Both the position numbers and the translations under genes were made by a program. From an uncultured SAR116 cluster alpha proteobacterium (GTDB lineage: Bacteria; Pseudomonadota; Alphaproteobacteria; Puniceispirillales; Puniceispirillaceae), in contig CABYPW010000005.1 of NCBI GenBank assembly GCA_902520885.1, positions 1 through 39,297 on the forward strand: a stretch of DNA of 39,297 nt, written 5' to 3'. The number at the start of each line of letters is the position of its first letter. Position 1 is the stretch's first letter. The notes under the pieces are model-generated. The model did no database searches, was not told where the DNA came from, and saw only the letters and a program-made list of their open reading frames with translations. Shown here piece by piece: positions 19,430-37,533 of this stretch.

Positions 19430-19514
19430 GAATTTTATTAAAAAATGAGGTCTTTTAGTCGTGTTTAATTTCATTTGGTCAAAAATAGATAATTATTTCT
19501 TTTAGATCATAACG

Positions 19515-21464: not shown

Positions 21465-21583
21465 CTTTATTAGGTTAATAATATTAAAGTAGAGAGCTTT
21501 TTTAGTTTCCATGAAGTTTAGTGTTTTCTCGGTGTTACTTTGTCCATTAACTAGGCAGCTAAAGGTTTTTTAATATGGGCCAA

Positions 21584-21613
21584 GGTCCATGTACCGTGGA
21601 CCTGTGACCACGG
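21584..21613 (+). promoter_or_regulatory. overlapping, mutually exclusive hairpins upstream of the Mrr-type gene
   Basis: GGTCCATG pairs with CGTGGACC (21584-21602, loop TAC, one G-T pair). The overlapping CCGTGG pairs with CCACGG (21594-21613, 8-nt loop). Both cannot form at once. GGACC recurs at 21598 and 21612, 14 bp apart. The structure lies about 55 nt before the ATG of the nuclease gene and could be an attenuator or a protein-binding operator. Confidence 0.5.
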
Positions 21614-21667
21614 ACCCCGCAGGATTGATGGATTGGCAAAGTTAGAAGAATATGGTTTTGTTGAGAA

Positions 21668-22867
21668 ATGAAAGATCACAACTTTAAAATAGACAAAATA
21701 ATAGAGCTTTTAGAAAAACCCTCAAAAACAGACCTTCCCGGTGGCAGGGGAAATGACCAAAGGGGGGAGTTTGCTGAAAGTTGGACGGACAAGGGAAGAA
21801 TAGTTTTCCGAAGAAAGAAAGGATCTCATCACCCCGTAATGACGGTTATACCTGACCTATTATCGATTTGTGCTATGCCAAAAGATGATTTTATAAAACT
21901 TATAACATTAATTAGGGAATTCGATAGGAAGGAGGAACTACTAGATTTCTACAAACCAGTTTTTATAGGACATAACGACTCATACCTTGAATTTGCATGT
22001 GATTATGATAGCTCTTTTAATGTTACTGACCATGTAAGAGAAAATCCTGATCCGAATAAAAAACCTACTCATTGGATGCTGAGAGGAATACCTGATAATT
22101 TTGCGCTTAATGAGTCGAAACCTGTTGATTTTTCCAAAGAGTATTTGATGTTTTTTTTGATCAAATTTGTTGGCAACTTGGATGGTTTTATAAGGCTTTA
22201 TCGAAATGAGATACGATTGGACGAATTCGGGGTTCCAGACAGGACTTCTTGGCAGAGAAAATTAAACAAGTTTCTTGAAAGTGAAGTTTTTCAAAGTAAA
22301 TATTTTCGCCATGAAAATTATTCTACAGAGCTTGAAAAGGAAGAATGGTCCTGGAAATATTTATCAAAATGCCTCAGACAAAAGGTAAGTGTGCGCCAGA
22401 AAGGTAGTTCTTGGGAAAACGTTTCACACAGTTATGAACTCATACAAAATGTTTGCGATTTTTTCTTTGAGATGTCGTCAAAAGCCTCACAATATAAACT
22501 TGAACCAGGTTCAGGTGTTTTGAATAGCGCCCTCATAAGCAAAAAAAGTAAAGGTATTGAATTTGAAAACCAGTGTATAGAGATTCTTCACGGCAGGGGC
22601 TGGTCATGTTCATCTACGCCAAAGTCGGGAGACCAAGGAGCTGACATAATTGCCTCAAGAGGCCCTATTCGTTTTGTTATTCAATGTAAAGATTATAAGG
22701 GGTCAGTTGGAAATGATGCGGTTCAGCAAATTAACGCTGCAAAAACTTTCTTTAAAGCCCATATTGCAGCAGTTGTAACCCAGTCCAAGTATACCAGCTC
22801 TGCAATGGACCTTGCTGAAAGCACAGGAGTATTACTGTTATTTAAGGATGATCTTGAGACCATTTAA
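21668..22867 (+). CDS. Mrr-type restriction endonuclease-like protein
   Basis: 399 residues. The C-terminal ~110 residues are an Mrr_cat PD-(D/E)XK domain: GIEFENQCIEIL near 296, catalytic GADII (Asp326) and FVIQCKDYKG (Gln339, Lys341), then a conserved helix and the ADVVTQS-like IAAVVTQSKYT. The N-terminal ~290 residues are not recognised and probably hold the recognition or sensing domain; they contain several Trp/Arg-rich helices. Mrr-like enzymes cut modified DNA. No methyltransferase accompanies it, which fits a type IV rather than type II system. The start ATG has only a weak ribosome site; a hairpin pair upstream may control expression. Confidence 0.82.
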   Translation: MKDHNFKIDKIIELLEKPSKTDLPGGRGNDQRGEFAESWTDKGRIVFRRKKGSHHPVMTVIPDLLSICAMPKDDFIKLITLIREFDRKEELLDFYKPVFIGHNDSYLEFACDYDSSFNVTDHVRENPDPNKKPTHWMLRGIPDNFALNESKPVDFSKEYLMFFLIKFVGNLDGFIRLYRNEIRLDEFGVPDRTSWQRKLNKFLESEVFQSKYFRHENYSTELEKEEWSWKYLSKCLRQKVSVRQKGSSWENVSHSYELIQNVCDFFFEMSSKASQYKLEPGSGVLNSALISKKSKGIEFENQCIEILHGRGWSCSSTPKSGDQGADIIASRGPIRFVIQCKDYKGSVGNDAVQQINAAKTFFKAHIAAVVTQSKYTSSAMDLAESTGVLLLFKDDLETI

Positions 22868-22927
22868 TTATTTTTTAAATTGTTGTTCATCCTTCACCTT
22901 GGTTGGTTAAGCCCAAAAAACATCCTA

Positions 22928-23773
22928 TTAATTCTGAAATCTTATATGCCGCCAATTAAGCGCTTCTGGATGCGGCATAGCTTCATTTGAAATAACATCA
23001 TTTTCGATTTTTAACTGAACGCTTGTGTTTCCAGATTTAACATACACCTTTCCAGAGCCTGGCATAATGTTAAACAGCCAATTATCAAATGCTTTATGAT
23101 GATTGGCGCACAGGATTATTCCGTTTTCTGGATGATCTGAACCGCCATCCTTAACACTTTTAACATGAGCTGCCTCCAACAATTCTGGAGTTGATATTGA
23201 ACATACCGCGCATTTAAGACCACAACGTTTTCTGACGTAGTAGCCAAACATTGGGTCGCGGCGCCTCTGTTCAGCTGACCTGGTCTTTTCGCGCTTACTG
23301 GCGTTGAGGTTGAAAGTGCTCGGGTCTGGCGTCTCTATTTTTGATGAATGTTTATTCCCAAAGATGATCAAACACTCGCTCTTGCCAAAATCGACAATCT
23401 TCCCAAAATCGACTTTCCTTAACGTTTTAGTTTTGCCATGGGAGATCACAAAAATTGGGAGCTCTAGCTCAAAGCTATTTTTTATGCTTTGAATATCAGC
23501 TCGATCGTAGCTCACAGTTTGATTGTTTGGGAAATGATAGATTATACCGTCATTATAAAGGTCATTTGCATAGCGTTGGCCAAGGTGCAAAACGCTGACA
23601 ACTGCTCCATCACCATCACTCGTTAAGCCTCTTGTATTCGCTTTGTCACGCCAGATTCCCCTTCCTCCACCATAGACGCCCATGTCTTTTAGTTCTTGCG
23701 GTGTGATATCGTCACGCCCCTCAAGTGATGCCCAACAATTAACTCGCCTCTCTAACTCAGCTTCTACTAACAT
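22928..23773 (-). CDS. HNH endonuclease with SRA-like N-terminal domain
   Basis: 281 residues from ATG 23773, chosen for GGAG 6 nt upstream; a TTG ten codons earlier lacks one. The N-terminal part carries GVYGGGRGIWRDKANT and VVSVLHLGQRYANDLYNDGIIYHFPNN (roughly 33-95), a pattern I know from HNH nucleases with an SRA/EVE-like base-reading domain. The C-terminus is an HNH domain: CGLKCAVC near 185-192, AAHVKSVKDGGSD near 202-214, NGIILCANHHKAFD near 218-231. Such enzymes resemble type IV (modification-dependent) restriction. It is convergent with the Mrr-type gene; no methyltransferase is present. Confidence 0.8.
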   Translation of the reverse strand: MLVEAELERRVNCWASLEGRDDITPQELKDMGVYGGGRGIWRDKANTRGLTSDGDGAVVSVLHLGQRYANDLYNDGIIYHFPNNQTVSYDRADIQSIKNSFELELPIFVISHGKTKTLRKVDFGKIVDFGKSECLIIFGNKHSSKIETPDPSTFNLNASKREKTRSAEQRRRDPMFGYYVRKRCGLKCAVCSISTPELLEAAHVKSVKDGGSDHPENGIILCANHHKAFDNWLFNIMPGSGKVYVKSGNTSVQLKIENDVISNEAMPHPEALNWRHIRFQN

Positions 23774-23940
23774 TTGGCTCTCCAAAAATGGCAAAGAACG
23801 CAAAAAACATTGTTTTCAACCCAATTTTCATTATCAAAAATTTAAAAATAGAAAAATCCTGTGATTAGAATTATCCAAATTAAAGTTTCTAAACTAATCA
23901 CATTATAAAATAATTTTAATTCTTTTCTCATAAATAATGG

Positions 23941-24315
23941 CTAATCTTTTTTATTTTTTTCAGTTTCGGTTTCTTCTTTGAGTTCAGATTTAATTTCTTC
24001 TTTGAGAGCTTTTCTGTAGTTAAAATATTCTTCTCTTTCTTTCTCTGCCCATTTATTATCTAACTTATTGAAAATGAGAAATAATACGCAGTAAAATGCC
24101 AAATGAAAATAAAATTGTGTGAACTCGTCATCGTATGTATTCACTTCAAAAAATGGTGGAAGAATAATATCAAGTATTCTCGTTTGATAAATTACAGTTG
24201 CTGTAATTAAAAATAAAATTAAAGCTTTGTACCGTGAAAGAGGACCACGCTTATATTTTATGCTGTTCTTCATAAGGCCTATATCCGAAAAACTAATCAA
24301 AAAAACTAATGGCAT
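23941..24315 (-). CDS. small membrane protein with charged C-terminal tail
   Basis: 124 residues from ATG 24315; an in-frame TTG three codons earlier and an ATG at 24273 are alternatives and none has a clear ribosome site. Two hydrophobic segments are visible, ALILFLITATVIYQTRILDIIL and FYFHLAFYCVLFLIF, followed by a ~45-residue Glu/Lys-rich helical tail (ending EETETEKNKKD) probably in the cytoplasm. No family recognised. Small membrane proteins on defence islands can be effectors or exclusion proteins; nothing here proves that. Confidence 0.6.
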   Translation of the reverse strand: MPLVFLISFSDIGLMKNSIKYKRGPLSRYKALILFLITATVIYQTRILDIILPPFFEVNTYDDEFTQFYFHLAFYCVLFLIFNKLDNKWAEKEREEYFNYRKALKEEIKSELKEETETEKNKKD

Positions 24316-24399
24316 TGTAGCCAATTTTAATTAATAAGATGAAAAGCAAAGTATTATTTTCGATAAAATTTGTGATAAAATCAGACATTTAAAATTAGC

Positions 24400-24426
24400 T
24401 TGACAGTGTTTTAGTTCTATTATGAT
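24400..24426 (+). promoter_or_regulatory. promoter-like sequence upstream of secreted-protein gene
   Basis: TTGACA (24400-24405) and TATGAT (24421-24426) with a short 15-nt spacer, 57 nt before the ATG at 24484. The -35 is consensus; the spacer is suboptimal. Confidence 0.4.
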
Positions 24427-24483
24427 AGTTAATATGACTTACAAAGAATGATGTCACATTTACCAACTAGTTGAAAATATTTA

Positions 24484-24993
24484 ATGCGTATTTTTAGGTT
24501 TACTATTTTATTTTTTTTATTCTTCCAGCACGCTGCTGCAGAAGTTTCCGAAATCAACTTAGTTTGTAAATACAAAAATAGTTGGATAGTTCTAACGGAC
24601 GGCATGGGACTTGATGTGAAACCGCCTTTTGGCCTGGAGAAACATAGTTATGTATCAGAGGTGGTGCAGGATATTAAAGATATATCGCTCAATTTGAGAT
24701 GGGTTGAAACCGCGACAGCAGGATTACTAACTCATAATAACGTAGAAGATGTTGTATTTCAGTTGGAAGGGAATAAAATCTTTTATACTCTGTTTCAAAA
24801 TATAAATAATAAGCCTTTTATTATTCATGAATTCAGCCTAGATCGATTAAGCGGAGAACTTCAAACAAGAACACGATTAAATATGGAAGATAATAAAGAG
24901 CGGTGTAAACAATTCCTAACCTGCGATTCTGAAATGTCTCCTGAAACAGGGGGTAAAATGTATTCTTGCTCCAGGGCTAAAGCTTTATTTTAA
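24484..24993 (+). CDS. exported protein of unknown function
   Basis: 169 residues. A clear Sec signal peptide covers residues 1-19 (hydrophobic FTILFFLFF, cleavage after HAAA). The mature part has four cysteines (NLVCKYK, ERCKQFLTCDSE, MYSCSRAK), consistent with disulfides, and a mostly beta pattern. No family recognised. It is a single gene with its own promoter-like sequence inside the island, divergent from the small membrane protein. A role at the cell surface, such as blocking adsorption or entry, is possible but unsupported. Confidence 0.65.
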   Translation: MRIFRFTILFFLFFQHAAAEVSEINLVCKYKNSWIVLTDGMGLDVKPPFGLEKHSYVSEVVQDIKDISLNLRWVETATAGLLTHNNVEDVVFQLEGNKIFYTLFQNINNKPFIIHEFSLDRLSGELQTRTRLNMEDNKERCKQFLTCDSEMSPETGGKMYSCSRAKALF

Positions 24994-25069
24994 AAGTTTT
25001 ACGTCGATAGGGTAGTCTCATAAAATCCCATTTTATCACATAAAAACAGTTAGTTACAAATTTTTTATA

Positions 25070-25097
25070 TTTACAATTGGGTAACTCTATGTATAAT
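25070..25097 (+). promoter_or_regulatory. sigma70-like promoter of the AlpA-primase-helicase operon
   Basis: TTTACA (25070-25075), 16-nt spacer, TATAAT (25092-25097). It leaves a ~150-nt leader before the ATG at 25250. In the leader GTACGCCG is repeated at 25141-25148 and 25174-25181 and is enclosed by TGAGCA (25115-25120) and TGCTCA (25186-25191), so the RNA could fold into a larger stem. A strong AAGGAG is 7 nt before the ATG. Confidence 0.65.
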
Positions 25098-25249
25098 TGG
25101 AGTATAGGTAAGTATGAGCACCTATCTGAACCGGAATACAGTACGCCGTTAAAAAGACTGCATAGTGGTATACGTACGCCGCCACTGCTCATCAAAGGCT
25201 GCGCTGCAAAAAAATCAAATAATTTTTAGAGCGCATAAGGAGCGATGCT

Positions 25250-25438
25250 ATGCAGCAATTTAATATCATTCCGCGCAGTCGTCTGTGCGAAGAACTTGGC
25301 ATAAGCCGAAGTACAATAAAACGATGGATCCAAACTCGCCAATTCCCTCGGCCCTTAAAAGCCTCCGGACGAGCCCCATTATTCGATAAACAGAGTGTAA
25401 TAGACTGGTTTGATAATATGGAGGGTCAAAATGACTGA
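25250..25438 (+). CDS. AlpA-like HTH regulator
   Basis: 62 residues forming a single MerR-like winged-helix DNA-binding domain: LCEELGISRSTIKRWIQTRQFPRPLKASGRAPLFDKQSVIDWF matches the AlpA pattern (helix-turn-helix, then wing, then the WF that ends the last helix). AlpA-type proteins control integrase or replication genes in P4-like elements. It overlaps the primase-helicase start by 8 nt, so the two are translationally coupled; this is the first gene of that operon. AAGGAG precedes the ATG at good spacing. Confidence 0.82.
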   Translation: MQQFNIIPRSRLCEELGISRSTIKRWIQTRQFPRPLKASGRAPLFDKQSVIDWFDNMEGQND

Positions 25439-27620
25439 TGTCCTCCTAGCCAAACGTTTCATGCAACTTTTTCGAGGGTACTCTGCAGCTTATGGTACAT
25501 ACGACCACCACAAACTTGGTGGAAGCGGAAAGCAGAAGCCTTCCTACTTAACAAAGAAACAAGCCTATTCACCCCAGGAATTTTTAGCTCATCTCAACGG
25601 TAGTTCACCAATTGGAATATACCCACTTGATGATCAGGAATTAGTTTCCTTTGCTGCGATTGATATTGATGAATACCCCATTGTTCATGAAGACATATCC
25701 AAGAGGCTGAAAGATTGGAATTTACCCTTTATTGTATGCAACAGCAAATCAGGTGGTGCGCATGCTTATGTATTTTTTCAAACACCCGAATTACCTGGTC
25801 CAACAATCTCTTGCCTAAGTAAAGTTAGCAACGCCCTTGGCTACGCAGATGCAGAAATTTTTCCGAAGCAGGAGTTCAGGCAAGCTGGAAAATTTGGAAG
25901 CTTTATTAACCTTCCTTTTTTTAGACACACAAAATTGAATTATGCCTGCTGGGATGGCAACAGAAAATTAGACTTGGATGGATTCTTAATATTTGCAGAG
26001 AAACAGAAAACAACACTCGAAAAGCTATCAAAAGCGATTGAGCTGGCAAAACTACCTCTTACCGATATTGATGCTCAAACTCATAAAAAAAACGAAGCAT
26101 CTGGACGAAATGATTTTATATTTATGTATGGCTGCAAGCTTAGAGAATATGTTGATGACAAGAAAATTCTTCTAGACTCAATGCAAAAGAAGAACCTAAC
26201 GGCAACCGAGGATGACCACGAGAATTTTCTTACACACGGGCCTCTTCCTTCACACGAAGTTAAAACGATTTGCAACAGTGTTCTAAATTACAGAAGAGAA
26301 GATAAAGCTGGAGAGCTATCCAGAGTTATAGATGAATTTAACCAGCAGCATGCCCATGTAATGATTGGAGGCAAAGCACGCATTCTGAATATTAAAAAGG
26401 ACCCAATTCATGGATGGGATATCTATGACTTCTCGACGCCAGCAGACTTCAAGTCACAATATGCAAATAAAAGTATAATGGTGGGAGATAAGCTTCAAAA
26501 TACCGCTCGTTTATGGCTGCAACACGTAAAAAGGCGCTCCTTTAAAGGACTGTGTTTTAATCCAGGAAAACATCAAAATGACTATTTCAACCTTTTTCAG
26601 GGCTTCCCGGTACAACCTATTCCTGGGGATTGTCATCAATACCTTGAACACATTAACCTTAATATCTGCAAGGGTGATGAGGAATTATATAACTACATTC
26701 TTGATTGGATGGCTGACGCGATTCAAAACCCGAATAAGCGACCTGGGGTTGCATTAGCAATCAGAGGCAAACAGGGTGTTGGTAAGGGCATATTCGTAAA
26801 TGTTTTTGCCAGTCTTTTCGGGCCACATACAATGCATGTTACTCAATCTAGTCATCTCGTGGGTAACTTTAATGCCCATCTAAAAGATAAGCTTCTAGTG
26901 TTTGCTGATGAAGCATTTTGGGCTGGTGACAAACGTGCTGAGGGGGCCCTTAAAGGAATGGTTACGGAAGACACCATCGCTATCGAAATGAAGGGGGTTG
27001 ATGTGCAGCCGTCACCTAACCTTATCCGCTTAATATTAGCATCCAACAATGACTGGCTAGTCCCAGCGAGTGCAGACCAAAGAAGGTTTGTCATAATAGA
27101 GGCAGGTGAGGCGCGAATGCAAGACTCAGCTTATTTCGAAACGATCATGGAACAGATAGAGAATGGGGGTCGCGAAGCATTGATGCATCTTTTGTGTCAG
27201 AGGGACCTCACGGATGTAAATCTCAGAAAGATCCCAAAAACAGATGCTCTTAGAATTCAGCAAACACTGAGTTTAGATAGTGTAGGAAAATGGCTTCATA
27301 GCTGCCTCTACACGGGTGAGATAGAAGATAGCCCAAACGGAGATAGAACTAATTGGCCCCCAAGTATTTCACCGTCGAATTTCCATCAAGCTTACCTTTG
27401 CTTTTGCAAGCAACACTCTTTATCACATCCTTCTGCATTTAATGTGTTTGGAAAAAAGCTTAAGGAACTTTTGCCTGCAATTAGCAAAATCAGGGAGGGT
27501 GGAAAAACACGTGAGATAAAGTATCTGCTGCCCTCACTTGAAGACGCAAGAAGCCAGTTTGAAAAGGTAAACGGCTGGGTTGCTATGCAATGGGAGGATA
27601 GTGACGGTCTACTTTTATAA
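25431..27620 (+). CDS. primase-helicase fusion (TOTE-type AEP primase + DUF5906/SF3-like helicase)
   Basis: 729 residues from ATG 25431; GAGGGT lies upstream and the alternative ATG at 25410 is inside the AlpA gene. N-terminal primase domain: YGTYD near 21, IDIDE with catalytic Asp78/Asp80, SKSGGAH near 105-111, IFPKQEF near 143 and GSFINLPFF near 156, the motif order of TOTE-type archaeo-eukaryotic primases. C-terminal helicase: Walker A GKQGVGKG near 446-453, Walker B LLVFADEAFW, sensor-type LASNNDW and an Arg-finger-like DQRRFVI, as in DUF5906/D5-type replicative helicases of phages and islands. It probably starts and unwinds the element's origin. Other members of a TOTE conflict system (terminal transferase-like, REase fusion) are not present. 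Confidence 0.87.
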   Translation: MTDVLLAKRFMQLFRGYSAAYGTYDHHKLGGSGKQKPSYLTKKQAYSPQEFLAHLNGSSPIGIYPLDDQELVSFAAIDIDEYPIVHEDISKRLKDWNLPFIVCNSKSGGAHAYVFFQTPELPGPTISCLSKVSNALGYADAEIFPKQEFRQAGKFGSFINLPFFRHTKLNYACWDGNRKLDLDGFLIFAEKQKTTLEKLSKAIELAKLPLTDIDAQTHKKNEASGRNDFIFMYGCKLREYVDDKKILLDSMQKKNLTATEDDHENFLTHGPLPSHEVKTICNSVLNYRREDKAGELSRVIDEFNQQHAHVMIGGKARILNIKKDPIHGWDIYDFSTPADFKSQYANKSIMVGDKLQNTARLWLQHVKRRSFKGLCFNPGKHQNDYFNLFQGFPVQPIPGDCHQYLEHINLNICKGDEELYNYILDWMADAIQNPNKRPGVALAIRGKQGVGKGIFVNVFASLFGPHTMHVTQSSHLVGNFNAHLKDKLLVFADEAFWAGDKRAEGALKGMVTEDTIAIEMKGVDVQPSPNLIRLILASNNDWLVPASADQRRFVIIEAGEARMQDSAYFETIMEQIENGGREALMHLLCQRDLTDVNLRKIPKTDALRIQQTLSLDSVGKWLHSCLYTGEIEDSPNGDRTNWPPSISPSNFHQAYLCFCKQHSLSHPSAFNVFGKKLKELLPAISKIREGGKTREIKYLLPSLEDARSQFEKVNGWVAMQWEDSDGLLL

Positions 27621-27654
27621 CTGTAGTCACAGATGTCATGTTAGGGGCTTAATA

Positions 27655-27797
27655 CTATGACGCCCTCTAGCCTATGACTAACAAGAGCTCGTCACACCCG
27701 TCATACACGTCATAGCAAAAAAGAGCCTGCTGTTTTCTTTGTGAGACGAGAAAAGAAATCGAACGCTATTTTTATCGTTTGCTGTGACAACTATGAC
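27655..27797. repeat. CTATGAC repeat cluster, candidate replication origin
   Basis: In the 247-nt gap between the convergent helicase and exonuclease genes, CTATGAC occurs at 27655-27661, 27672-27678 and 27791-27797, its inverse GTCATAG at 27709-27715, and a near copy GTCATAC at 27700-27706. Iteron-like repeats next to a primase-helicase gene fit an origin; a transcription-termination role is the alternative. Confidence 0.5.
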
Positions 27798-27867
27798 ATA
27801 AAGCGATCACGCCATTTATGGTCTAAATAGCCAGCCATAATAAGATCAGCTCTATCTGCCAAAGTTT

Positions 27868-29226
27868 TCAGAGAGTTTTCAAGTAGGATTCAATTTTTTT
27901 TATTTCTAATATTCTCTCTGGGTATGTAGTCATGAGTTTTTCACAAGCCGAAAGTGCTTTTGCCACTGTATTCCAAGGAAAATCATCTGGTCCGTATATT
28001 CTTTCCTTGATTGCAGCCTCATATTTTGCCAATATTTCCGGTTCAAAATTATTTCGATAGTTATCATATAGAATTCTTTGAGCCAATAAATGGAATTTTT
28101 CACTAGCAAAAGTTTTTGCTATGGTAAACTTTGTTGTAACAGACCCATCATGAAATTGGTGTAATAATTCTGCTTCAGATGAAAAATCCTGAAAGCTATC
28201 ATAAAGCTGCAGTTCAACATGTTCGCTTGGTTCCCACACTTTTTTATTTTGCTCAAAAAGCTGCTTTATCTCCGTAGTATCGAAAATAGCTTGAACTTTT
28301 TTTTGTCTCTCTATCAGCAATGGTAAATCTAAATCTTTTGAAATATCAAAAGATAGAAATTCATCTACCGAAAAGGCGATTGGCATTTTAGAGCTTTCAC
28401 AAACTCTAAATTTTCTTGCTCTTCCTGAAAAACATTCATCGGGTTTTTCTAGGGAAACGAATTCGGGATCATGTCGTAAGTCAAAGAAAAGAGCATCGCG
28501 CCCATTATTAATTTTACAGATTTCGACTGCTGGAAATATTGTCACCCATCCAAAGGCCTGTTCACAAATTATCCAAATTTCTTCTTTTTGAATTTGGTTG
28601 TGAAAGCTTGCCCTTGAGGAAGCTTCTTGGGCACGGCTCCACAGTAAGGGTGCTCCATCCTTAATTTTGTTGGCAATAAAAATGGTGGCCTCAACGTCTC
28701 CTAGAGCATCATGAGCATGATGAGTGTTGAACCCATTTGCTTGCGCAAGGTCTTCCAATTTTTTCGATGTTTTCCCTTTTTTATTCAGGGGGAAATTCAA
28801 TAACTCAGGATACAAAAATTCAACCAACCTCGCCAGGATTAGTAAATCCGTTCTGACATTGCCGTTTATTTGTGTGAGAAACGGCTGATGCAAATTTTTA
28901 AAAAACAGGCTCCGCAAATATGGTTCATCAAAACCTAGATTATTATAACCAGAGATAATTGAAGGTCCCCAACTTTCAAGTTTTTCTTTAAACAATCGAG
29001 CTGCCTCAAATTCACTATGAGGTGCTTGGTCCAAGCTATAGGGGTCAGTTCGCGTAACAAGTAAAGCCTCAGGTTCTGGAACAATATGGCGAAGTCGCCT
29101 CAGCCGAATATTAAACTTTTCCAGTGGTTCGAGGTCTTGATCTGTATGAATTGCAGCTATTTGTGTTATTTGTCCAAAATTCGGATCGCGGCTCGTTGTC
29201 TCAACATCATAAAAGGTATAATTCAT
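27868..29226 (-). CDS. exodeoxyribonuclease I-like 3'-5' exonuclease (SbcB family)
   Basis: 452 residues, close to E. coli ExoI (475). DEDDh catalytic set: YDVETT with Asp7/Glu9, GYNNLGFDEPYL near 93-104 and the HDALGDVEAT motif near 172-181 (His and Asp five apart, as in ExoI). The SH3-like and C-terminal regions are present but divergent. ExoI degrades single-stranded DNA 3' to 5'. It is the last gene of the - strand island operon, one base after the PD-(D/E)XK gene. An element-borne copy may process replication intermediates or attack incoming DNA. Host ExoI would normally be elsewhere on the chromosome. Confidence 0.88.
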   Translation of the reverse strand: MNYTFYDVETTSRDPNFGQITQIAAIHTDQDLEPLEKFNIRLRRLRHIVPEPEALLVTRTDPYSLDQAPHSEFEAARLFKEKLESWGPSIISGYNNLGFDEPYLRSLFFKNLHQPFLTQINGNVRTDLLILARLVEFLYPELLNFPLNKKGKTSKKLEDLAQANGFNTHHAHDALGDVEATIFIANKIKDGAPLLWSRAQEASSRASFHNQIQKEEIWIICEQAFGWVTIFPAVEICKINNGRDALFFDLRHDPEFVSLEKPDECFSGRARKFRVCESSKMPIAFSVDEFLSFDISKDLDLPLLIERQKKVQAIFDTTEIKQLFEQNKKVWEPSEHVELQLYDSFQDFSSEAELLHQFHDGSVTTKFTIAKTFASEKFHLLAQRILYDNYRNNFEPEILAKYEAAIKERIYGPDDFPWNTVAKALSACEKLMTTYPERILEIKKIESYLKTL

Positions 29227-29703
29227 TTAGTTTCCCCCCAAAGCACTAAGCGCGCTTTCCCAGGAGAGAACTTCTGCATTATCGCTTATAAATTGTTCTC
29301 GTTTCCAAATTACGTTTTTTTGAACACCGGCAGAAAATAGGATTTTTTCATCAATTAGATTTACGCAACACGCTATATCAAATGAGTTATTTTGATAAGG
29401 AAAAACACCTTTTTTACTATAGTAATAACCTCTCATAAAAGTAAAATTATACGTAGCTTTTAAAACATTCGACGTCTTTACTTGGATTTTTTTTAGACCA
29501 AATTTCGTATCTGCAACAATATCATAGGAATCACCCGCAGCTACAGAAAAAGCATTAACGTTCCATTTTTTTAGCTTCGCCAGGGCTAGTGTCTCTCCCG
29601 CCTCACCAATTCTCACGTCAGATTTCTCCCGGGTGTGTATTTGATTTTCAGGGCGAGTAATGTTCGGCTCGAAAAGGTCTAAATTTAACTGTTTGTTAAG
29701 CAT
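29227..29703 (-). CDS. PD-(D/E)XK nuclease-like protein
   Basis: 158 residues from ATG 29703 (GGGGAG upstream; a TTG directly before it is the alternative). Core nuclease pattern: GEAGETLALAKLKKWNVNAF near 32-51 (Glu in the first helix), YDIVADTKFGLKKIQVKTS near 60-78 with catalytic Asp and the QVK, then a strand-rich segment. This resembles the small PD-(D/E)XK endonucleases (PDDEXK_11 type) found with group I introns and on islands. It overlaps the 79-residue gene by 8 nt and abuts the ExoI-like gene, so the three are coupled. Could be a Holliday-junction or nicking nuclease; not determined. Confidence 0.78.
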   Translation of the reverse strand: MLNKQLNLDLFEPNITRPENQIHTREKSDVRIGEAGETLALAKLKKWNVNAFSVAAGDSYDIVADTKFGLKKIQVKTSNVLKATYNFTFMRGYYYSKKGVFPYQNNSFDIACCVNLIDEKILFSAGVQKNVIWKREQFISDNAEVLSWESALSALGGN

Positions 29704-29935
29704 CAAAAAATTCTCCCCTTCTTACTCTCTGGCTAATTGCAAGGAAAATAATCGCTGCGGCGTCGTGCCAATTTGGTTCATGTTCGATATCGGATATCAT
29801 ATCTATTGAGTCCAACATAATTTTAAGGGCCATTTTTGGGGATAGCCCTTTTTGCTTGGCAAGACACAAATATGCATCGGTATATAATCGAATTTGGTCG
29901 CCATCCTGCGACAATGGGACATTTTCAAACAGCAT
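29696..29935 (-). CDS. unknown 79-residue protein in the primase-nuclease operon
   Basis: Small, helical, acidic-to-neutral protein with no recognised family. It begins LFENVPLSQDGDQIRLYTDAYLCLAKQKGLSPKMALKIML and ends in a charged RRGEFFDA. The ribosome site GGAG is 7 nt before the ATG, so translation is credible. The gene overlaps the PD-(D/E)XK gene by 8 nt. Its position between primase and nuclease suggests a partner or regulatory subunit. Confidence 0.68.
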   Translation of the reverse strand: MLFENVPLSQDGDQIRLYTDAYLCLAKQKGLSPKMALKIMLDSIDMISDIEHEPNWHDAAAIIFLAISQRVRRGEFFDA

Positions 29936-30047
29936 TTTACTTCTCCTTTTTTCTTGTAAATGAAAAGTCTGATGCGTATAAAAATGTTGCGAACAAGGAC
30001 ATCAGACATGGTGTTTTTGGGGGAGGGTCGCTTGCAGGTGACCCTCC

Positions 30048-30632
30048 TTATACTAACTCCTTAATTTTATAAATTTCTTTGCTTGTGATCTCTTGAATTG
30101 GCAAATTGTTCCTTATTTTGTATAAATTACCTGATTTATGCTGCGAGTAAGGCCCTATCACAAAGCTTAAATCGCGGGTATATTTTGGCTGGCTACACAG
30201 GTCTATGCCAGGAGCAATAGCATCCACTTCACTAAAAATTTCGTCATTGCATCGAAAATAAAAATGAAAGCCCCCTGAGCCTGTTTCAACTGAAAAAGTT
30301 GAATTAAACATTTCTAACGCAGCTAGGTTTTGCGCAAACGTGGCAAGACCCCCTGCCCGAGTGTCAATATCTATTACTGTAAGTCGGCTTTTAACACCCG
30401 TGTGAACAACTAAGTTAAAGTTTTTACCACGCCACCAAGAATTAATTGTGTTCTTATCAATTGATGATTTTTTCGGCTCCTCCTGAAAAAACGGATGTTT
30501 GCCAACTCTCCAACAATTATTGTTTTTGCAGTTACAAAAACTACCATTCAACCCGAAAGCTGGCGATACGTATATTTCTTTACGTGCAAGTGCAAGGGCC
30601 ATATCAAGTGTATTTTTAGCAAGAAAATTCAT
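30048..30632 (-). CDS. stand-alone primase-polymerase (PrimPol, archaeo-eukaryotic type)
   Basis: 194 residues corresponding to a bifunctional DNA primase/polymerase N-terminal domain without a helicase. Motifs: zinc-knuckle-like CNCKNNNCWRVGKHP near 33-47, catalytic LTVIDIDTRAGG (Asp88, Asp90), GSGGFHFYF near 118-126 with the motif II histidine, and VIGPYSQHKSGNLYKIRN near 166-183. It starts inside the HTH gene (4-nt overlap, ATGA). This is the second primase of a different subgroup on the same island. It could synthesise primers for the element or act in a defence-like module with the two nucleases downstream. Confidence 0.85.
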   Translation of the reverse strand: MNFLAKNTLDMALALARKEIYVSPAFGLNGSFCNCKNNNCWRVGKHPFFQEEPKKSSIDKNTINSWWRGKNFNLVVHTGVKSRLTVIDIDTRAGGLATFAQNLAALEMFNSTFSVETGSGGFHFYFRCNDEIFSEVDAIAPGIDLCSQPKYTRDLSFVIGPYSQHKSGNLYKIRNNLPIQEITSKEIYKIKELV

Positions 30633-31453
30633 AGTCTTCGAACCTTAGGGTAATCAGAGGGATCCACCAACTTACCATTTTTAAAAAACTTGGTCCTATC
30701 GTTAAGTATCAATTTTTCCCATTCATATTTTAAAGTTGGTGGTGGTGTACCTGAATTGACAAAAATACGTGCGGATATGACAGAAGAAGGAACAATTATT
30801 ATCATAAGATGAATTGTTGAGTTAAAATGAATATCAAACCAGTTATAAAATTCGTCGCTTCTCTCCCAAAAATCAAAACACTCCGCAAAAACGGTAACGC
30901 CGGACTGCGTTAGTTCTTCTTGTATTTCAAAAAAACCATGATTGAGCCTTTTTCTTGCAACTTGTTGGGCCAAATTATCGTCGGTTGTATCTTTTGCCTC
31001 TGTCGCGTTTGAGTGCGAATGAAGCTTATCAATCCAGTTTTCTAGCTTCTCGAGCAGAAACTCTTGTTCTCGTGTGAGGATCTCAATTTCAAGTTTGTAC
31101 CGAATTCTTGAACTCCGCTTAATTAATATTGGCAAGCGGTTTGGTTCGACTTCATCCATATTAAGCATTACTTGCGGGCTGGTTTCATCCTCACAATAAT
31201 TAAAAGTTTTAGAGGTTTCAAAGTCGCGTAACTCAGGAAATAAGTTATCTAAAGAGTTGTCTAAAATAATGTTAACCTTGCGCAGGGTTTCTAACTTCAC
31301 TTCTTCACCATTCGCAATTATATCGACAGTTTTCCTATCAATACCTTTAACTCCTTTAGGAGTGTTAGTGTTATATAAATCAGTTCTCTTTAACCCTTGC
31401 TCGGAGAGAAACTTATCCAATAAACCTTTTTCTAATTTAACTTTTTTCTTCAA
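30629..31453 (-). CDS. HTH (XRE-like) regulator with unknown C-terminal domain
   Basis: 274 residues from a TTG start with AGGAG 8 nt upstream. Residues about 8-70 read as a Cro/CI-type helix-turn-helix (LLDKFLSEQGLKRTDLYN, IDRKTVDIIANGEEVKLETLRKVNIIL). The remaining ~200 residues are unrecognised: a helical LTREQEFLLEKLENWIDKLHSHS segment near 125-147, and a hydrophobic IHLMIIIVPSSVISARIFV strand unit near 215-233. It is the first gene of the five-gene operon. A 12-bp inverted repeat sits 55 nt upstream and fits autoregulation. The C-terminal part may sense a ligand, as in CI-like repressors. Confidence 0.68.
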   Translation of the reverse strand: MKKKVKLEKGLLDKFLSEQGLKRTDLYNTNTPKGVKGIDRKTVDIIANGEEVKLETLRKVNIILDNSLDNLFPELRDFETSKTFNYCEDETSPQVMLNMDEVEPNRLPILIKRSSRIRYKLEIEILTREQEFLLEKLENWIDKLHSHSNATEAKDTTDDNLAQQVARKRLNHGFFEIQEELTQSGVTVFAECFDFWERSDEFYNWFDIHFNSTIHLMIIIVPSSVISARIFVNSGTPPPTLKYEWEKLILNDRTKFFKNGKLVDPSDYPKVRRL

Positions 31454-31482
31454 TCTTTGGTCTCCTTCTGTTTGAGTAAGAG

Positions 31483-31557
31483 ATATGGGAAAAAAAAAGG
31501 AAAAACAATGGGAATTTTTGAAGAAAAAATTATATTTTTATATAAAAATTCCCATAT
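31483..31557. promoter_or_regulatory. operator-like inverted repeats upstream of the HTH-primase operon
   Basis: ATGGGAATTTTT (31508-31519) is perfectly complementary to AAAAATTCCCAT (31544-31555). A third half-site ATATGGGAA (31483-31491) pairs with TTCCCATAT (31549-31557). All lie in the 291-nt gap between the AlpA gene and the HTH gene, just upstream of the latter. Probable binding sites of the HTH protein. Confidence 0.6.
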
Positions 31558-31744
31558 TTATACTCAAGTATATGTATTAATTGAGGGATTTATATTTTCT
31601 TTTTTTTTAAGTAAAATGAAAATTTACTAAAAATAATACTCTCGTGCATTTAGGTGTCATCCAAAATATGTAAATTTGTGTAGGCAGCAAGTTACTAATA
31701 AGCGTATTTTTTATAAAAGCTTATACAGATTCACACTATGCTTT

Positions 31745-31987
31745 TTAATTTTTGGATTGAAAATCGCTGTTAGATATAATCGTATTCACCAATCCTTGTA
31801 TATCATCGGATCGCCAAACAGTCATATTTTGAGATAGCTTGATCGGCTTTGGATAGATACCTCTTTTAACCCCATCCCACCAAGCAGACTTGGAAACGGG
31901 GATAATAGGCTGGATGTTTTTCTTATTATCTCCGATGATATGTTTTAATCGAAGAAAGGTCGGTGTGACCGTGGGCTCTTGTTTCAT
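31745..31987 (-). CDS. AlpA-like transcriptional regulator / excisionase-like protein
   Basis: 80 residues with one AlpA-type domain: FLRLKHIIG, VSKSAWWDGVKRGIYPKPIKL and VWRSDDIQGLVNTI match the family's helix-turn-helix, wing and final helix. It overlaps the integrase stop by 4 nt and is co-transcribed with it. In P4-like islands AlpA-type proteins control integrase expression or excision direction. This is the second AlpA-like gene on the island (the other is at 25250), so the two probably serve separate switches. Confidence 0.8.
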   Translation of the reverse strand: MKQEPTVTPTFLRLKHIIGDNKKNIQPIIPVSKSAWWDGVKRGIYPKPIKLSQNMTVWRSDDIQGLVNTIISNSDFQSKN

Positions 31988-33192
31988 CTATTATGTCCTT
32001 CAACAAGTCTAATTACTTTTTCTTCTCTCCTATATAAAAAGTTTGCCCAATCGTTCATAAGAGACACTCTTTTTTCATATAAATTACCTCGTCTATAAGC
32101 TGCCTCTACTTTATTACTCACTATATGTGCTAGTGCCATTTCGGATGTCTCATTATCATATCGAGTTGTCTCACTTACCCAATCCTTAAAGGTAGACCGA
32201 AGACCATGGGTAGTAGTTTTAAGCTTTAATCTTTTTTGCAAAGATAGCCGTAACGTATTGTCTGACAAACGCTTACCTGTCTCAGGATTTGGAAAGACTA
32301 ATCCTTGAGAGCCGTAACGCTCTCCTGCCTCTAAAAGGACTGCCAAAGCCTGTTTTGAGAGCGGTACCTTATGTTCAAGTGAAGCCTTCATTCTCTCTTT
32401 AGGAATAACCCAGCATTGTTTTTCTAAATCAATTTCATCCCAGCGAGCTCCCAATGTTTCAGACTGCCTAGTGGCTGTAAGTAAAAGAAATGCAAGCGCA
32501 AGGCGCGTAGAGGGTTTAATTTGGCTCTCATATAATTGTTTTATAAGTTCTGGAGCTTCCTGATAAGGTAGTGCTTCATGGTGTCTTCCTTGAGCTGAAA
32601 CTTTTGGCAAAGCAAGTGTTGCTAGGTCTACGGGGTTGTCTGAAGAATGATACCCCTCTGCTTTAGCCCAGGTCATGATTTGTGATAATCGTTGCTTAAT
32701 TTTCTTCGCGGTATCTGGTTTATCTACCCAAATAGGAGATAAAACAGATAAGATATCGGCTGAGTTAATAGAGGATACACTTTTTTGGCCAATCTTTGGG
32801 AATACATGATTTTCAAGAGAAGAAAGCCATTGAGCTGCGTATTTCTCATTTTTATATGTTTTAGCATTCATTTTATGAACTATTAGTGCAATTTCCTTTA
32901 AACTTTTGTCTTTTGCCTGCTGCGCTCTTTTCTCTTTAAGAGGATTTCCGCCATTTTTAATCATTCGCTTATTACGAATGGCAATCTCCCTTACCTCCTC
33001 TAACGATATAAGTGAGGCGCTTCCAAGACCTAAATCATGTCGTTTTCCGTTAATGGTGATTCTTTGCTCCCAGCGTTTTGCACCGCTTTTGGCAACAACC
33101 AAATACAGCCCATAACCATCGCCATATTTGCCTGGTTCCGATATCTTTTTTATAAATAAAGCACTCAATCGATTTGAGTTGTGAGCGGCCAT
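31984..33192 (-). CDS. tyrosine recombinase integrase (P4-type, DUF4102 arm-binding N-terminus)
   Basis: 402 residues, typical for P4-like integrases. The N-terminal arm-binding domain includes GKYGDGYGLYLVVAKSGAKRWEQR near 20-43 and GLGSASLISLEEVREIA near 55-71. The core-binding helix region follows. Catalytic residues: LLTATRQSETLGARW near 237-251 (Arg), THGLRSTFKDW near 318-328, ALAHIV near 345 and the Tyr in VEAAYRRG near 354-361. It is 149 nt from the tRNA-Ser target, transcribed away from it. Its ribosome site lies in or beside the TACCCCAC boxes, so self-binding could repress expression. Confidence 0.95.
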   Translation of the reverse strand: MAAHNSNRLSALFIKKISEPGKYGDGYGLYLVVAKSGAKRWEQRITINGKRHDLGLGSASLISLEEVREIAIRNKRMIKNGGNPLKEKRAQQAKDKSLKEIALIVHKMNAKTYKNEKYAAQWLSSLENHVFPKIGQKSVSSINSADILSVLSPIWVDKPDTAKKIKQRLSQIMTWAKAEGYHSSDNPVDLATLALPKVSAQGRHHEALPYQEAPELIKQLYESQIKPSTRLALAFLLLTATRQSETLGARWDEIDLEKQCWVIPKERMKASLEHKVPLSKQALAVLLEAGERYGSQGLVFPNPETGKRLSDNTLRLSLQKRLKLKTTTHGLRSTFKDWVSETTRYDNETSEMALAHIVSNKVEAAYRRGNLYEKRVSLMNDWANFLYRREEKVIRLVEGHNR

Positions 33193-33196
33193 ATCT

Positions 33197-33216
33197 TACC
33201 CCACATTTTACCCCAC
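33197..33216 (+). repeat. tandem TACCCCAC boxes, right end (candidate integrase arm sites)
   Basis: Two TACCCCAC copies with spacer ATTT, 125 nt from the att core and 4 nt upstream of the integrase ATG. Matches the left-end pair at 19410-19429 in sequence and orientation. Confidence 0.65.
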
Positions 33217-33340
33217 AATTTGTCTTAGATTCTACAGGACGGCATCGGACGAGTCCAGCACTTATTATCCCATAATATCCTGATTTTATTGAGATATTTT
33301 CGATTTAAAGATGGTAAAAGATGGCACTAATAAGGGTAGT

Positions 33341-33355
33341 GTGGCGGAGGGGAAG
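33341..33355. repeat. right attachment site (15-bp direct repeat in tRNA-Ser)
   Basis: Same 15 bases as 19335-19349. It covers the CCA end, discriminator and acceptor stem 3' strand of tRNA-Ser plus the start of the T-arm on the complementary strand. Confidence 0.88.
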
Positions 33356-33433
33356 GGATTCGAACCCCCGGAAGGAGTTTCCTCCTTCAACGATTTAGCA
33401 AACCGCCGCCTTCAGCCACTCGGCCACCCCTCC
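33342..33433 (-). tRNA. tRNA-Ser (anticodon GCU)
   Basis: 92 nt with encoded CCA. The acceptor stem GGAGGGG/CCCCTCC, discriminator G, the serine-type TGGCCGAGTGGCTGAAGGC D-arm, anticodon loop TTGCTAA (GCU), a long variable arm (GAAGGAG...CTCCTTC) and TTCGAATC T-loop are all readable. It is the integration target of the island and remains intact. Confidence 0.95.
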
Positions 33434-33656
33434 GCAATAAATAGTTGAAGTTCAAATAATTGCACGGCGTTTGTACTTTTCGTTTAATCTCTTCACATAA
33501 GCATGTCAATTCATTCAATCATTAATATGAAAGAAATTTATAAAATCATTATGTAACCTATTTATAAATATTTTCAGATTTAATGTGATACAGATCTTGA
33601 TTAGCAATAATTTCTGATTTAATTATTTGTCATTTGTGTGTTTCTCTGGAGTACAA

Positions 33657-34604
33657 GTGGATTTAATTACCTCAATGCGCGTTTTCACTATTATCGCGAG
33701 TGAAAATTCATTCAGAGCAGCTGCCGAACTTTTAGATATGCCACCCTCTGCTATATCAAAGCATCTTGCAGCTCTGGAGGCTCGACTAGGCGCCCAACTG
33801 ATAGAGAGAACAACAAGAAAAGTTTCAGTAACAGAAGTAGGTTCTGATTATCTAGAAAGATGCCGTCATATCTTATCCGAAATTGACGAGGCAGAGGCAG
33901 AGATTACAGATGCTACTGGAGAGGTAAAAGGTGTATTAAAGGTCAGCGCACCTCCCGCTTTTGCGCACAGACACATTGCACCACACATGCCATTTTTTCT
34001 GAGCAAATATCCAAAATTATCCGTAGATTTAAGCACTACAGATTATTCAATATCTCCCAGTCATACTGCAATTGATTTACACATACGTATCTCTGAAATG
34101 AATACAACAGATGGTCTCACAACTATTATGCTTGCACCTAATACGCGAAGACTAGTTGCAAGCCGAGAATATTTAAATACTCAGGGAACACCATCGGCTG
34201 TTTCAGACTTGCAAAAACATCGTCTAATTACGCTCGAATATGGACATCCACATAATAACTGGCATTTCAGATCAGATAATGGCGAGATAATTACATTTCT
34301 TGCAAATGGTACAGTCAGGATGGACTCTGGTGATGCTATATTACGTGCGGTCCTAAACAATGGAGGTATCTCAATGCTTCCAACCTATGTTACTGGAAAG
34401 CACATTCATAATAAGCATCTTGTTCCCGTTCTTGATGAGCTGGTGAATGAAGATGAGCCTATACATGCGACATTTAGAACAAAAAATCATCGATATAAGC
34501 GTATAATGCTACTCACTACTTTTCTTCAAAGCCTATATTCTCCAACACCTTATTGGGACCAGCATGAGGGGACGTCAGAAGCTGCATTACGAGCAGCGCT
34601 CTAA
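33657..34604 (+). CDS. LysR-family transcriptional regulator
   Basis: 315 residues from GTG 33657, chosen because GGAG lies 5 nt upstream; an in-frame TTG ten codons earlier lacks a ribosome site. N-terminal winged helix-turn-helix ([50 protein letters not shown]) covers about residues 6-57, followed by a LysR substrate-binding domain from about 90. It converges on gatB with overlapping stop codons. No target operon is adjacent; the gene may regulate a distant locus. Confidence 0.9.
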
Positions 34605-36055
34605 ATATCAAGCTTTTGTTTCAATAACTGGTTTACCATACCTGGGTTAGCCTGCCCTTTTGAAGCTTTCATCACTTGACCAACAAAAAATCCGAATAAT
34701 TTTTCTTTACCGCCTCTATATTCATCTACCTTATCAAGGTTGGCTGCTAACACCTCATCTATCATGTAAATAATAGCGCTTTCGTCTGATACCTGTTTCA
34801 GCCCTCTTTCTTCAACAATAACCTTTGCATCCTTTCCAGTCTCAAACATGGAAGAAAACACTTCTTTTGCAATCTTACCAGATATACTCCCATCAGAAAT
34901 CAAATCAACTAAACCACCCAACTGTTTAGGTTTCACTGGGCTTTGAGCTAGTTCAATACCAGCTTTATTAAGAGCGCCAAATAATTCTACGCTCATCCAG
35001 TTTGCTGTAATTTTCCTGTCTCTCCCATCACTAGCTAGCTCATAAAACACTGCCGTTTCTCTCTCTTCAGTAAGTACATTTGCATCATACGAAGAAAGAC
35101 CATATTCGTTAACCATTCTGTTTTTTATTTCATCCGGTAATTCTGGCATTCCGTCTTTTAGCTTATCAATAAATGCATCATCGAATGTGAGTGGCAACAA
35201 ATCAGGGTCCGGAAAATAGCGATAATCATGTGCATCTTCTTTTCCACGCATAGTTCTAGTCATTCCAGTTGAGGTATCGAATAGTCTAGTTTCTTGAATA
35301 ACCTCACCACCATCTTCAATAAGTTCTATTTGCCGTTGTACCTCAAACTCAATTGCTTGCATTATGAATCTAACCGAATTAAGGTTTTTTGTTTCAGTTC
35401 TAGTTCCCAGTATATCTCCTGGTCTCCTAACTGATACATTCACATCCGCACGCAGAGAGCCTTCCTCCATGTTCCCATCACATGTCCCAAGATATCGTAA
35501 AATTGACCTTAACTTTTTAATGTAAGCAGCAGCTTGTTCTGCCGAATGCATTTCAGGCTTTGATACAATCTCCATCAAAGCTACACCAGAACGATTAAGA
35601 TCAATGTAACTTTTTGAAGGATGTTGGTCATGAAGTGATTTACCTGCATCTTGCTCTAAGTGAAGTCTTTCAATACCTACTTTATGTATACTTCCATCAG
35701 ATAGCTCTATTTGTATTTCCCCTTCCCCAACAATTGGATGTTTAAATTGGCTTATCTGATAGCCTTGCGGTAAATCTGCATAAAAATAATTTTTCCGATC
35801 AAATACACTGAATTTATTTATCTTTGCGTTGAGTCCGAGGCCGGTTAAAACAGCCTGTTTAACACATTGTCCATTTATTACCGGAAGCATTCCTGGCATT
35901 GCTGCGTCCACCAGAGAAACGTGATTATTAGGACTTGCCCCAAATACTGCAGAAGACCCTGAAAACAATTTAGAATTCGAAACTACTTGTGCATGAACTT
36001 CCATGCCAATTACGATTTCCCAATCACCGGTTCTACCTGATACTAATATGCTCAT
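34601..36055 (-). CDS. gatB: Asp-tRNA(Asn)/Glu-tRNA(Gln) amidotransferase subunit B
   Basis: 484 residues. The GatB core is clear: [12 protein letters not shown] near 12-23, [14 protein letters not shown] and the ATP-binding [11 protein letters not shown]-like segment ([27 protein letters not shown] near 203-229). The C-terminal YqeY-like domain ([20 protein letters not shown]) is present. GatB activates the carboxylate on the misacylated tRNA. It overlaps gatA by 4 nt and is the last gene of the gatCAB operon. Confidence 0.96.
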
Positions 36056-37533
36056 TGTAAATCTCCCGCTGCCCGAGCTGGTGCCAACAAGAATTCTGCT
36101 TGCTTCTCAATAGCATTTGCTACTGAAAATAGTCTTCCCTCTTCAAAAGGCGGTGCTAACAATTGGAGTCCAAGAGGAAGGCCCTGATTTGAGAATCCTG
36201 CCGGAACAGATATACCAGGCAAACCTGCAAGATTTGCTGGGACAGTAAAGACGTCGTTTAAATACATTGTAATAGGGTCAGAAACTTCTGCACCCAAAGG
36301 AAAGGCTGGCGTGGGAGTAGTAGGGGTTAGGATCGCATCAACATCATTAAACGCTTCGTCAAAATCTTCTTTTATAAGGCGTCTTACTTGTTGTGCTTTA
36401 AGATAATAGGCATCGTAATAACCTGCAGACAATGCATAAGTACCGATTAGTATCCTCCTTTGCACTTCTTCGCCAAACCCATCTGCTCGAGTTGCTTCAT
36501 ACATCGCATCAAGTGTCTCAGCTTCTATACGTTTACCATACCTAATTCCATCATAACGAGCCAGATTCGATGATGCCTCTGCTGGCGCAATAATATAATA
36601 ACAAGGAAGAGCATACTTCGTGTGAGGAAGGTTAATATCAACAATCTTAGCGCCAGCTTGTTCTAACCAGGCACGTCCCTTTTTCCATAAGTCAGAAATT
36701 TCAATATCCATCCCATCTACATTATACTCTGCTGGAATGCCTATACGAAGTCCCTCAATACCAGATTTTACTGCTTCTGAAAAATTTGTATATCCTAGAG
36801 AAGCTGAAGTAGAGTCTTTTGGGTCATGCCCTGCCATAACAGAAAAAATTAATGCTGAGTCTTCAACTGTTCTAGTAAATGGGCCTGCCTGGTCGAGAGA
36901 AGACGCAAACGCGACGATACCCCACCTGGAACAACGTCCATAGGTAGGCTTTAATCCAACCACACCACAAAATGCAGCGGGTTGACGGATAGAACCTCCC
37001 GTATCTGTCCCCAAGCTCATTAAGGCAGAACCGGCTGCTACAGAGGAAGCAGAACCCCCAGAAGAACCCCCAGAAGATAAATCAATTCCGTCTATTTTAC
37101 TCCATGGATTAACTGCCGGACCAAATATACTCGTTTCATTAGAAGAGCCCATAGCAAATTCGTCACAATTTAACTTTCCTAGCATCACGCCACCAGACTG
37201 CCAAATATTAGATGTAACAGTGCTCTCATATGAAGGCAAAAATCCTTTAAGTATAGCTGAGCATGCTGTCGTTTCTATATTTTTTGTGCAAAATAAATCC
37301 TTGACCCCAATAGGCAATCCAGCTAAGGAGCCAGCATTTCCTTGAGCGTAAGCTTTATCAGCATTTACAGCCATCTGTTTTGCCGCATCCAATGTGGTGG
37401 TAACATAATTATTTAATGCCTCTGTTTTTTCCATGGCATTCTGGTAAGCATTTAACAATTCAACAGATGATATTTCTTTTTTCAGAAGCGAATTTCTAGC
37501 CTCTGTCGCCGTCATTTTTAATAAGTCTGACAT
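36052..37533 (-). CDS. gatA: Asp-tRNA(Asn)/Glu-tRNA(Gln) amidotransferase subunit A
   Basis: 493 residues, amidase-signature family. The Ser-cis-Ser-Lys triad is visible: Lys in GVKDLFC near 77, the [14 protein letters not shown] loop near 153-166 and [11 protein letters not shown] near 174-184. It releases ammonia from glutamine for the GatB reaction. It sits 28 nt after gatC and overlaps gatB by 4 nt. Confidence 0.97.

Follow-up and report, generated by a model that had tools for sequence, protein, structure and literature searches.

What would a stand-alone primase, two nucleases, a small protein and a regulator do together in one operon of a mobile element? This question is raised by five genes at 27868-31453 of the window, by which we mean the whole stretch of 39,297 nucleotides (nt) analysed here, from an uncultured, probably marine alpha proteobacterium of the SAR116 cluster. 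The genes lie in an integrative element inserted at a tRNA-Ser gene. Our best explanation, to which we assign a probability of roughly 0.42, is that they form a single self-regulated transcription unit in the cargo slot of the element, in which two nucleases and a gap-filling primase-polymerase (PrimPol) would work under their own repressor, against invading DNA rather than in core replication. The unit consists of the following features.

31485-31555: candidate operator with three ATGGGAA half-sites, two of them within the inverted repeat 31508-31555
30629-31453, minus strand: first gene, the regulator, 274 amino acids (aa), with a TTG start preceded by AGAAGGAG
30048-30632, minus strand: stand-alone PrimPol of the archaeo-eukaryotic primase (AEP) type, 194 aa, overlapping the regulator gene by 4 nt (ATGA)
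29936-30047, minus strand: gap of 112 nt between the PrimPol gene and the 79-aa gene, containing a hairpin with an 8-bp stem
29696-29935, minus strand: gene for a 79-aa protein of no known family, preceded by AAAAAAGGAG, with an AAGGAG site
29227-29706, minus strand: PD-(D/E)XK endonuclease-like gene, 159 aa from its TTG start, with an alternative ATG at 29703
27868-29226, minus strand: Exonuclease I (ExoI)-like 3'-5' exonuclease, 452 aa, whose ATG abuts the TAA of the PD-(D/E)XK gene

An earlier note, made from the letters alone, had placed five open reading frames (ORFs) here, and all of them were found at those positions on the minus strand. The junctions that it described, namely overlaps of 4 nt and 8 nt, one abutment and one gap of 112 nt, were also borne out, the overlap between the PD-(D/E)XK gene and the 79-aa gene being 8 nt when counted from the ATG at 29703 and 11 nt from the TTG. 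The genes are laid out as an operon, beyond what is expected by chance, and the two overlaps and the abutment point to translational coupling. In a codon usage comparison trained on 15 genes of the window, each of the five genes scored best in its own frame against the other five frames. One observation counts against the call of the 79-aa gene: a plus-strand ORF that runs across it (29836-30072) also has a positive codon score, 0.068 against 0.102 for the gene itself. The 79-aa protein has no match in Pfam or NCBIfam and its best PHROG match has E=0.24; relatives of the gene were found in none of 150 other genomes, nor by a scan of viral contigs.

The hairpin in the gap is an inverted repeat at 30022-30047, directly behind the PrimPol stop codon, and could set the expression of the downstream genes. 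The fold of the surrounding region (29926-30060) has z = -2.14, and 5 of 200 shuffled sequences are equally stable. A template RNA in the gap was also considered and rejected, since these values are insufficient and no Rfam family was found; over 19000-33600, Rfam recognises only the tRNA. Scans for promoters and terminators found no more than they did in shuffled sequences.

The element extends over 14,006 bp between 15-bp repeats at tRNA-Ser(GCT), and its other features are as follows, att denoting the attachment site.

19335-19349: second copy of the att core, at the far end of the element
21668-22867, plus strand: Mrr_cat restriction-endonuclease-like cargo gene (PF04471, E=7.3e-21)
22928-23803, minus strand: HNH endonuclease cargo gene (PF13391, E=5.8e-12)
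25250-25438, plus strand: second AlpA/HTH_17-type gene (by Pfam), ahead of the primase-helicase gene
25410-27620, plus strand: primase-helicase of the AEP(TOTE)-DUF5906 type, 247 nt from the exonuclease gene, towards which it is convergent
31745-31987, minus strand: AlpA-like gene, with a Pfam AlpA match below the cut-off
31984-33192, minus strand: tyrosine integrase (by Pfam), part of a region that has 97% identity with the sister element described below
33341-33355: copy of the att core, at the 3' end of tRNA-Ser(GCT) (33342-33433)

A genome of the same genus (G001) carries a sister element, at about 16444-36110 of its contig. Over 1,644 nt, its tRNA-Ser, integrase and alpA match the window at 97.1% identity; the likeness breaks off at position 31797 of the window, inside alpA. 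About 19.7 kb away stands a 12-base copy of the core, a less secure mark than the 15 bases in the window. Neither the primase-helicase nor any of the five genes has a match in between (phmmer, E<=1e-3). The cargo instead includes PbeA-like (E=8.7e-192) and PbeC-like (E=9.9e-126) defence proteins and a DNA methylase, together with a protein of 674 aa in which sigma-70 region 4 is joined to an RNA polymerase alpha C-terminal domain. Because the same integrase-alpA module stands at the same tRNA with different cargo, we regard the operon as exchangeable cargo. By this comparison, the slot behind integrase and alpA holds exchangeable cargo, with defence-type genes in the one case available, and the operon may itself be defence cargo. 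The earlier note had offered two functions, a replication or processing module and an anti-phage module; the cargo status favours the second somewhat, and the first is retained as well.

Two further genomes were compared over one stretch each, G004 (L207) and G003 (L209), and neither stretch showed a related integrase. Separately, G003 has three copies of the tRNA-Ser att core, at 9954, 12564 and 16527 of L209, with an ORF of 1097 aa between two of them that looks flagellin-like by eye. With three copies in one genome, the tRNA-Ser looks like an integration hotspot.

By its gene content, the element of the window is a cryptic integrated element with an AEP. It shares with the third class of elements described in PMC5862659 a tyrosine integrase, direct-repeat att sites, a tRNA target and an AEP primase, and it is likened to them by class and not by AEP family; what it adds is the second primase, a stand-alone PrimPol whose gene is coupled to those for two nucleases and a regulator. 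Pfam recognises no transfer (conjugation) or virion gene among the 15 ORFs taken as genes, as in that class, and also none of the capsid-remodelling or packaging genes of P4-like satellites and phage-inducible chromosomal islands (PHROGs covered nine of the 15). Some phage satellites are reported to be without such genes (PMC10803314).

The PrimPol belongs to PF09250, for which it scores 69.3 bits where 22.8 would suffice (E=6.7e-19), and has the three AEP motifs. All 10 sequences compared have Asp88, Asp90, His123 and Asp144, so that the earlier note had named Asp88 and Asp90 correctly; the same holds for Asp7 and Glu9 of the exonuclease, treated below. The protein is a bare catalytic core, with neither a PriCT region nor a helicase. 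Distant relatives are numerous among the primases of phages and plasmids, and nothing was found at E<=0.01 in a sequence search of the PDB.

The PD-(D/E)XK protein matches PF11645 (PDDEXK_5) above the cut-off (E=7.5e-08) with an intact motif, read by eye from the alignment as Glu38, Asp62 and Gln75-x-Lys77. Relatives occur in 2 of 150 genomes, one of them with in-frame stops, these being the same two among 135 of the order, and in 1 of 288 genomes of the class; relatives were also found in five plasmids and in no phage. The nearest relative, 46% identical over its 77 residues and cut by the end of its contig, overlaps a gene for a PF10108 3'-5' exonuclease (E=7.7e-60) by 4 nt (GTG start) or 1 nt (next ATG). 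This pair is followed by a 243-aa protein of no assigned family and is convergent with DUF3427 and DndB-like genes. Four of the five plasmid loci were opened. In three, all from Sulfitobacter, an AAA ATPase gene is next, likewise in the genome G399, and both plasmid ATPases scanned have a Peptidase_M41-type domain; in the Paracoccus plasmid, no AAA ATPase gene is annotated after the PD-(D/E)XK gene.

The exonuclease matches RNase_T above the cut-off (E=4.2e-10), and an AlphaFold model built from 39 sequences has a mean predicted local distance difference test (pLDDT) of 93.8. Each of the top 18 PDB matches to this model is an Exonuclease I that aligns along its full length, with TM-scores of 0.80-0.86 by query length, which identifies the modelled fold as that of full-length ExoI. 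D7, E9, D100, H172 and D177, which we take to be the DEDDh catalytic positions, are invariant in the 39 sequences. Since it scores 154.9 bits against a cut-off of 260 for the NCBIfam exodeoxyribonuclease I equivalog, we call it ExoI-like and not an equivalog. Compared with Exonuclease I (SbcB), it thus has the full-length fold and the DEDDh residues, with the activity predicted from them, and it differs in falling below the NCBIfam cut-off, in lying on a mobile element and in its long tree branch. It is the only ExoI match in its genome (95% complete), and within the order ExoI as such occurs often, with a match at E<=1e-10 in 55 of 151 relatives.

A link to defence-associated reverse transcriptases (DRTs) through the RT-associated SbcB model of PADLOC (RTasSbcB) was rejected: the match of the window's exonuclease (1e-81) is weaker than those of all eight ExoI relatives used as a control (E=1.4e-88 or lower), among them a presumed chromosomal SAR116 ExoI (2.4e-90). 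As the model proved unspecific in this control, the match was dropped as evidence.

Relatives of the regulator were found in none of 245 other related genomes or 288 other genomes of the class (overlapping sets), and in no plasmid or phage record. The earlier note had called it a helix-turn-helix (HTH) gene; this call holds as a weak match to HTH_26 (13.4 bits), below the cut-off of 22. A single-sequence AlphaFold prediction (pLDDT 43.4) is usable for residues 1 to about 70, the HTH, and nothing below E=0.07 was found in the PDB sequence search. The protein is likely an autoregulator, with a Cro/C1-type HTH followed by about 200 aa of no recognised kind. Upstream of it lies the inverted repeat 31508-31555, with 21-nt arms, which is equalled in 1 of 200 dinucleotide shuffles of the region. 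The sequence ATGGGAA followed by three A or T occurs three times in 31485-31555 and nine times in the window, where 2.4 are expected. These repeats fit a putative operator to which the HTH protein would bind.

As we infer the activities and triggers of the unit, the first gene would repress it through the upstream inverted repeat and release it on a trigger, e.g., phage entry, DNA damage or excision. The PD-(D/E)XK enzyme would then cut target DNA, the single strands so released would be degraded by the ExoI enzyme, starting at their 3' ends, and PrimPol would re-prime and fill single-strand gaps, so that the DNA of the host or the element survives both nucleases. The likeliest use of such a module would be as accessory anti-invader cargo, with replication of the element left to the separate primase-helicase. 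That enzyme has an AEP-TOTE domain (54.1 bits against a cut-off of 27) and a DUF5906 helicase part, and because it is a second, complete primase-helicase, PrimPol may be redundant for replication. TOTE conflict systems combine an AEP-TOTE domain with a TOTE-type helicase and nuclease. In the order, relatives of the primase-helicase have no ExoI match in the neighbourhoods fetched; one, in the genome G015, is 62% identical and has one in-frame TGA.

For an anti-invader role, we count the PbeA- and PbeC-like cargo of the sister element, the Mrr_cat and HNH genes in the element of the window, the convergence of the PD-(D/E)XK/PF10108 pair with DUF3427 and DndB genes, and the type I restriction, C5-methylase or ThiF genes near relatives of the exonuclease. 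We also count a report that the ICETh2 PrimPol of Thermus holds the nuclease AddAB in balance (PMC9751324). On these grounds, a self-regulated DNA-processing cargo module is somewhat more likely to act against invaders than in replication.

Several results weigh against this role. PrimPol matches were found in 13 of the 245 other related genomes, and eight of the 13 neighbourhoods were opened. In five of them (L053, L054, L057, L059 and L061), PrimPol is followed by an ATPase-like protein of 369-411 aa, which in L061, the only one of the five scanned, is an AAA_25 protein; in L052, it is followed by a D5_N/DUF5906 helicase, and in L056 and L063 (a fragment) by neither. An AlpA-type gene lies upstream, by match, in L053, L054 and L061. 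These stand-alone PrimPols look like parts of replication modules. They are of the same Pfam family as that of the window and likewise stand on elements, but those of the five loci named first are longer (253-280 aa) and have an ATPase-like partner, whereas the window's PrimPol, of 194 aa, stands behind an HTH gene without such a partner. Near the element primase genes of relatives, a protein of 117-124 aa with the motif WRFG-x-x-WPG-x-x-C recurs (L170-L175, L057 and L061).

The loci of the exonuclease were taken as the best 80 of 441 relatives, selected by one peptide pattern from one genome each of 84,980 species; some of these loci are short (from 3.2 kb), and more distant ExoI loci lie outside the sample. 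In 4 of 79 ExoI loci, ExoI is convergent with a primase-helicase, with 131-188 nt between them, and the window shows the same arrangement with 247 nt. The four are from Ruegeria marina, R. arenilitoris, Nioella and one uncultured Rhodobacteraceae; as they form a single clade with 100% support in the Shimodaira-Hasegawa-like approximate likelihood ratio test (SH-aLRT), we treat them as one origin. The integrase of the window matches an ORF behind the ExoI unit in all four, and type I restriction or C5-methylase genes are nearby in three. In the tree, the two rows nearest to the window's ExoI are L064/L076, from Puniceispirillum, and L065/L077. In the former, ExoI is followed downstream by two small genes, an AlpA-like gene and a primase of the zinc-ribbon/AAA_25 kind; the setting of the latter is shared with L066, and no primase was seen there.

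ExoI beside primases in other elements fits replication equally well, and replication or maintenance of the element is a quite possible alternative. According to this explanation, PrimPol would prime after excision, the PD-(D/E)XK enzyme would resolve or nick intermediates, ExoI would trim single strands, and the regulator would be a lysogeny-like repressor. In addition to the convergent pairs of that one clade and the primase near one of the two closest ExoI relatives, it is favoured by the AEP families studied in PMC5862659, nearly all of which are reported to lie on integrated elements. Against it, the element already has a complete primase-helicase, and the sister element with the same integrase-alpA module does without all five genes.

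A further control that tells against an anti-invader role of the operon is provided by plasmids. ExoI matches were found in 41 plasmid records, and in all five loci opened, ExoI stands behind HTH and ImmA/IrrE genes, with ThiF adjoining in four; ExoI also stands behind ImmA in 7 of the 79 genome loci. Often, the neighbours of these units are divergent ThiF genes. Such modules resemble the window in that a single unit joins a regulator of the HTH type to an ExoI from the same family, but the window lacks the ImmA/IrrE protease, and its ExoI belongs to another clade. CapH/CapP-type systems have such a protease beside the HTH gene, and Pfam finds no such domain in the five genes. Cleavage of CapH by CapP is activated by single-stranded DNA, as reported in PMC10904395, so ExoI in the ImmA/IrrE units could modulate a signal of this kind. 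Among the known defence models, none fits the operon specifically.

The last point against the anti-invader role concerns conservation. In the 80 loci, ExoI was accompanied by no match to any of the other four genes (E<=0.01), and seven scans of viral contigs gave no relative, single-protein scans reaching close relatives only. The conserved neighbourhood of five genes that the earlier note proposed to look for thus did not appear in the genomes, plasmids, phages or viral contigs searched; within these collections, and for the set as a whole, this is the first outcome that the note had named as refuting its proposal. What does recur are two pairs, in which ExoI stands with a primase or a PD-(D/E)XK gene with that of a 3'-5' exonuclease. 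The view of the note that the combination is not a named system agrees with the open-licence full-text literature searched, where neither this combination nor a PrimPol-ExoI system is described. In summary, enzymes of these kinds are known and elements of this class have been described, and the combination of five genes was not found elsewhere in the collections searched. A combination unique in the searches made, in a kind of element whose cargo turns over, might suggest genes gathered by recombination that share one promoter by chance and have no joint function. We consider this unlikely, because the two overlaps and the abutment point to coupling and another genome also has a PD-(D/E)XK gene that overlaps one for a 3'-5' exonuclease.

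A quite different use of the same enzymes is suggested by DRT9, in which poly-dA made by a reverse transcriptase is reported to be toxic without ExoI and to accumulate when the phage protein gp58 shields 3' ends (PMC12483538). By analogy, the bare PrimPol core might make untemplated or poorly templated single-stranded DNA whose level ExoI holds down, and blocking or saturation of ExoI by a phage would cause a build-up at which the cell stops. The N-terminal catalytic part of PolpTN2 makes long, untemplated terminal-transferase products where the whole enzyme adds one nucleotide, according to PMC3973330; the window's PrimPol is likewise a bare core, and the ExoI gene is, as noted, the sole match in its genome. 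We nevertheless consider this improbable. PolpTN2 belongs to another AEP family, PrimPol and ExoI are paired in none of the 80 loci, and the PD-(D/E)XK enzyme is given no role. There is also no known template RNA by Rfam, and no reverse transcriptase, which DRT systems require, by Pfam among the 15 ORFs. The window shares with DRT9, as described in PMC12483538, a DNA-making enzyme and an ExoI-type enzyme able to limit its product; it differs in having a PrimPol for the reverse transcriptase, an exonuclease inside the operon instead of that of the host, and no noncoding RNA found. The fuller form of this idea, a PrimPol-based abortive immunity in which constant making of single-stranded DNA is set against its destruction in the same operon until a phage that interferes with the exonuclease or the regulator upsets this balance and the cell is stopped, seems to us more improbable still.

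The significance of the locus depends on which explanation is true. If the operon is a defence module, stand-alone PrimPols would join the list of enzymes with a possible use in bacteria against invaders, and the operon would be a case of a DNA-making enzyme sharing a transcription unit with an exonuclease that could restrain it. If PrimPol-based abortive immunity were true, it would carry the principle of DRT9 from reverse transcriptases over to primases. If the operon serves replication, it would show that small elements pack their own end-processing enzymes. Whichever of these applies, an integrase-alpA module shared within one genus, with its cargo swapped, provides a natural comparison pair.

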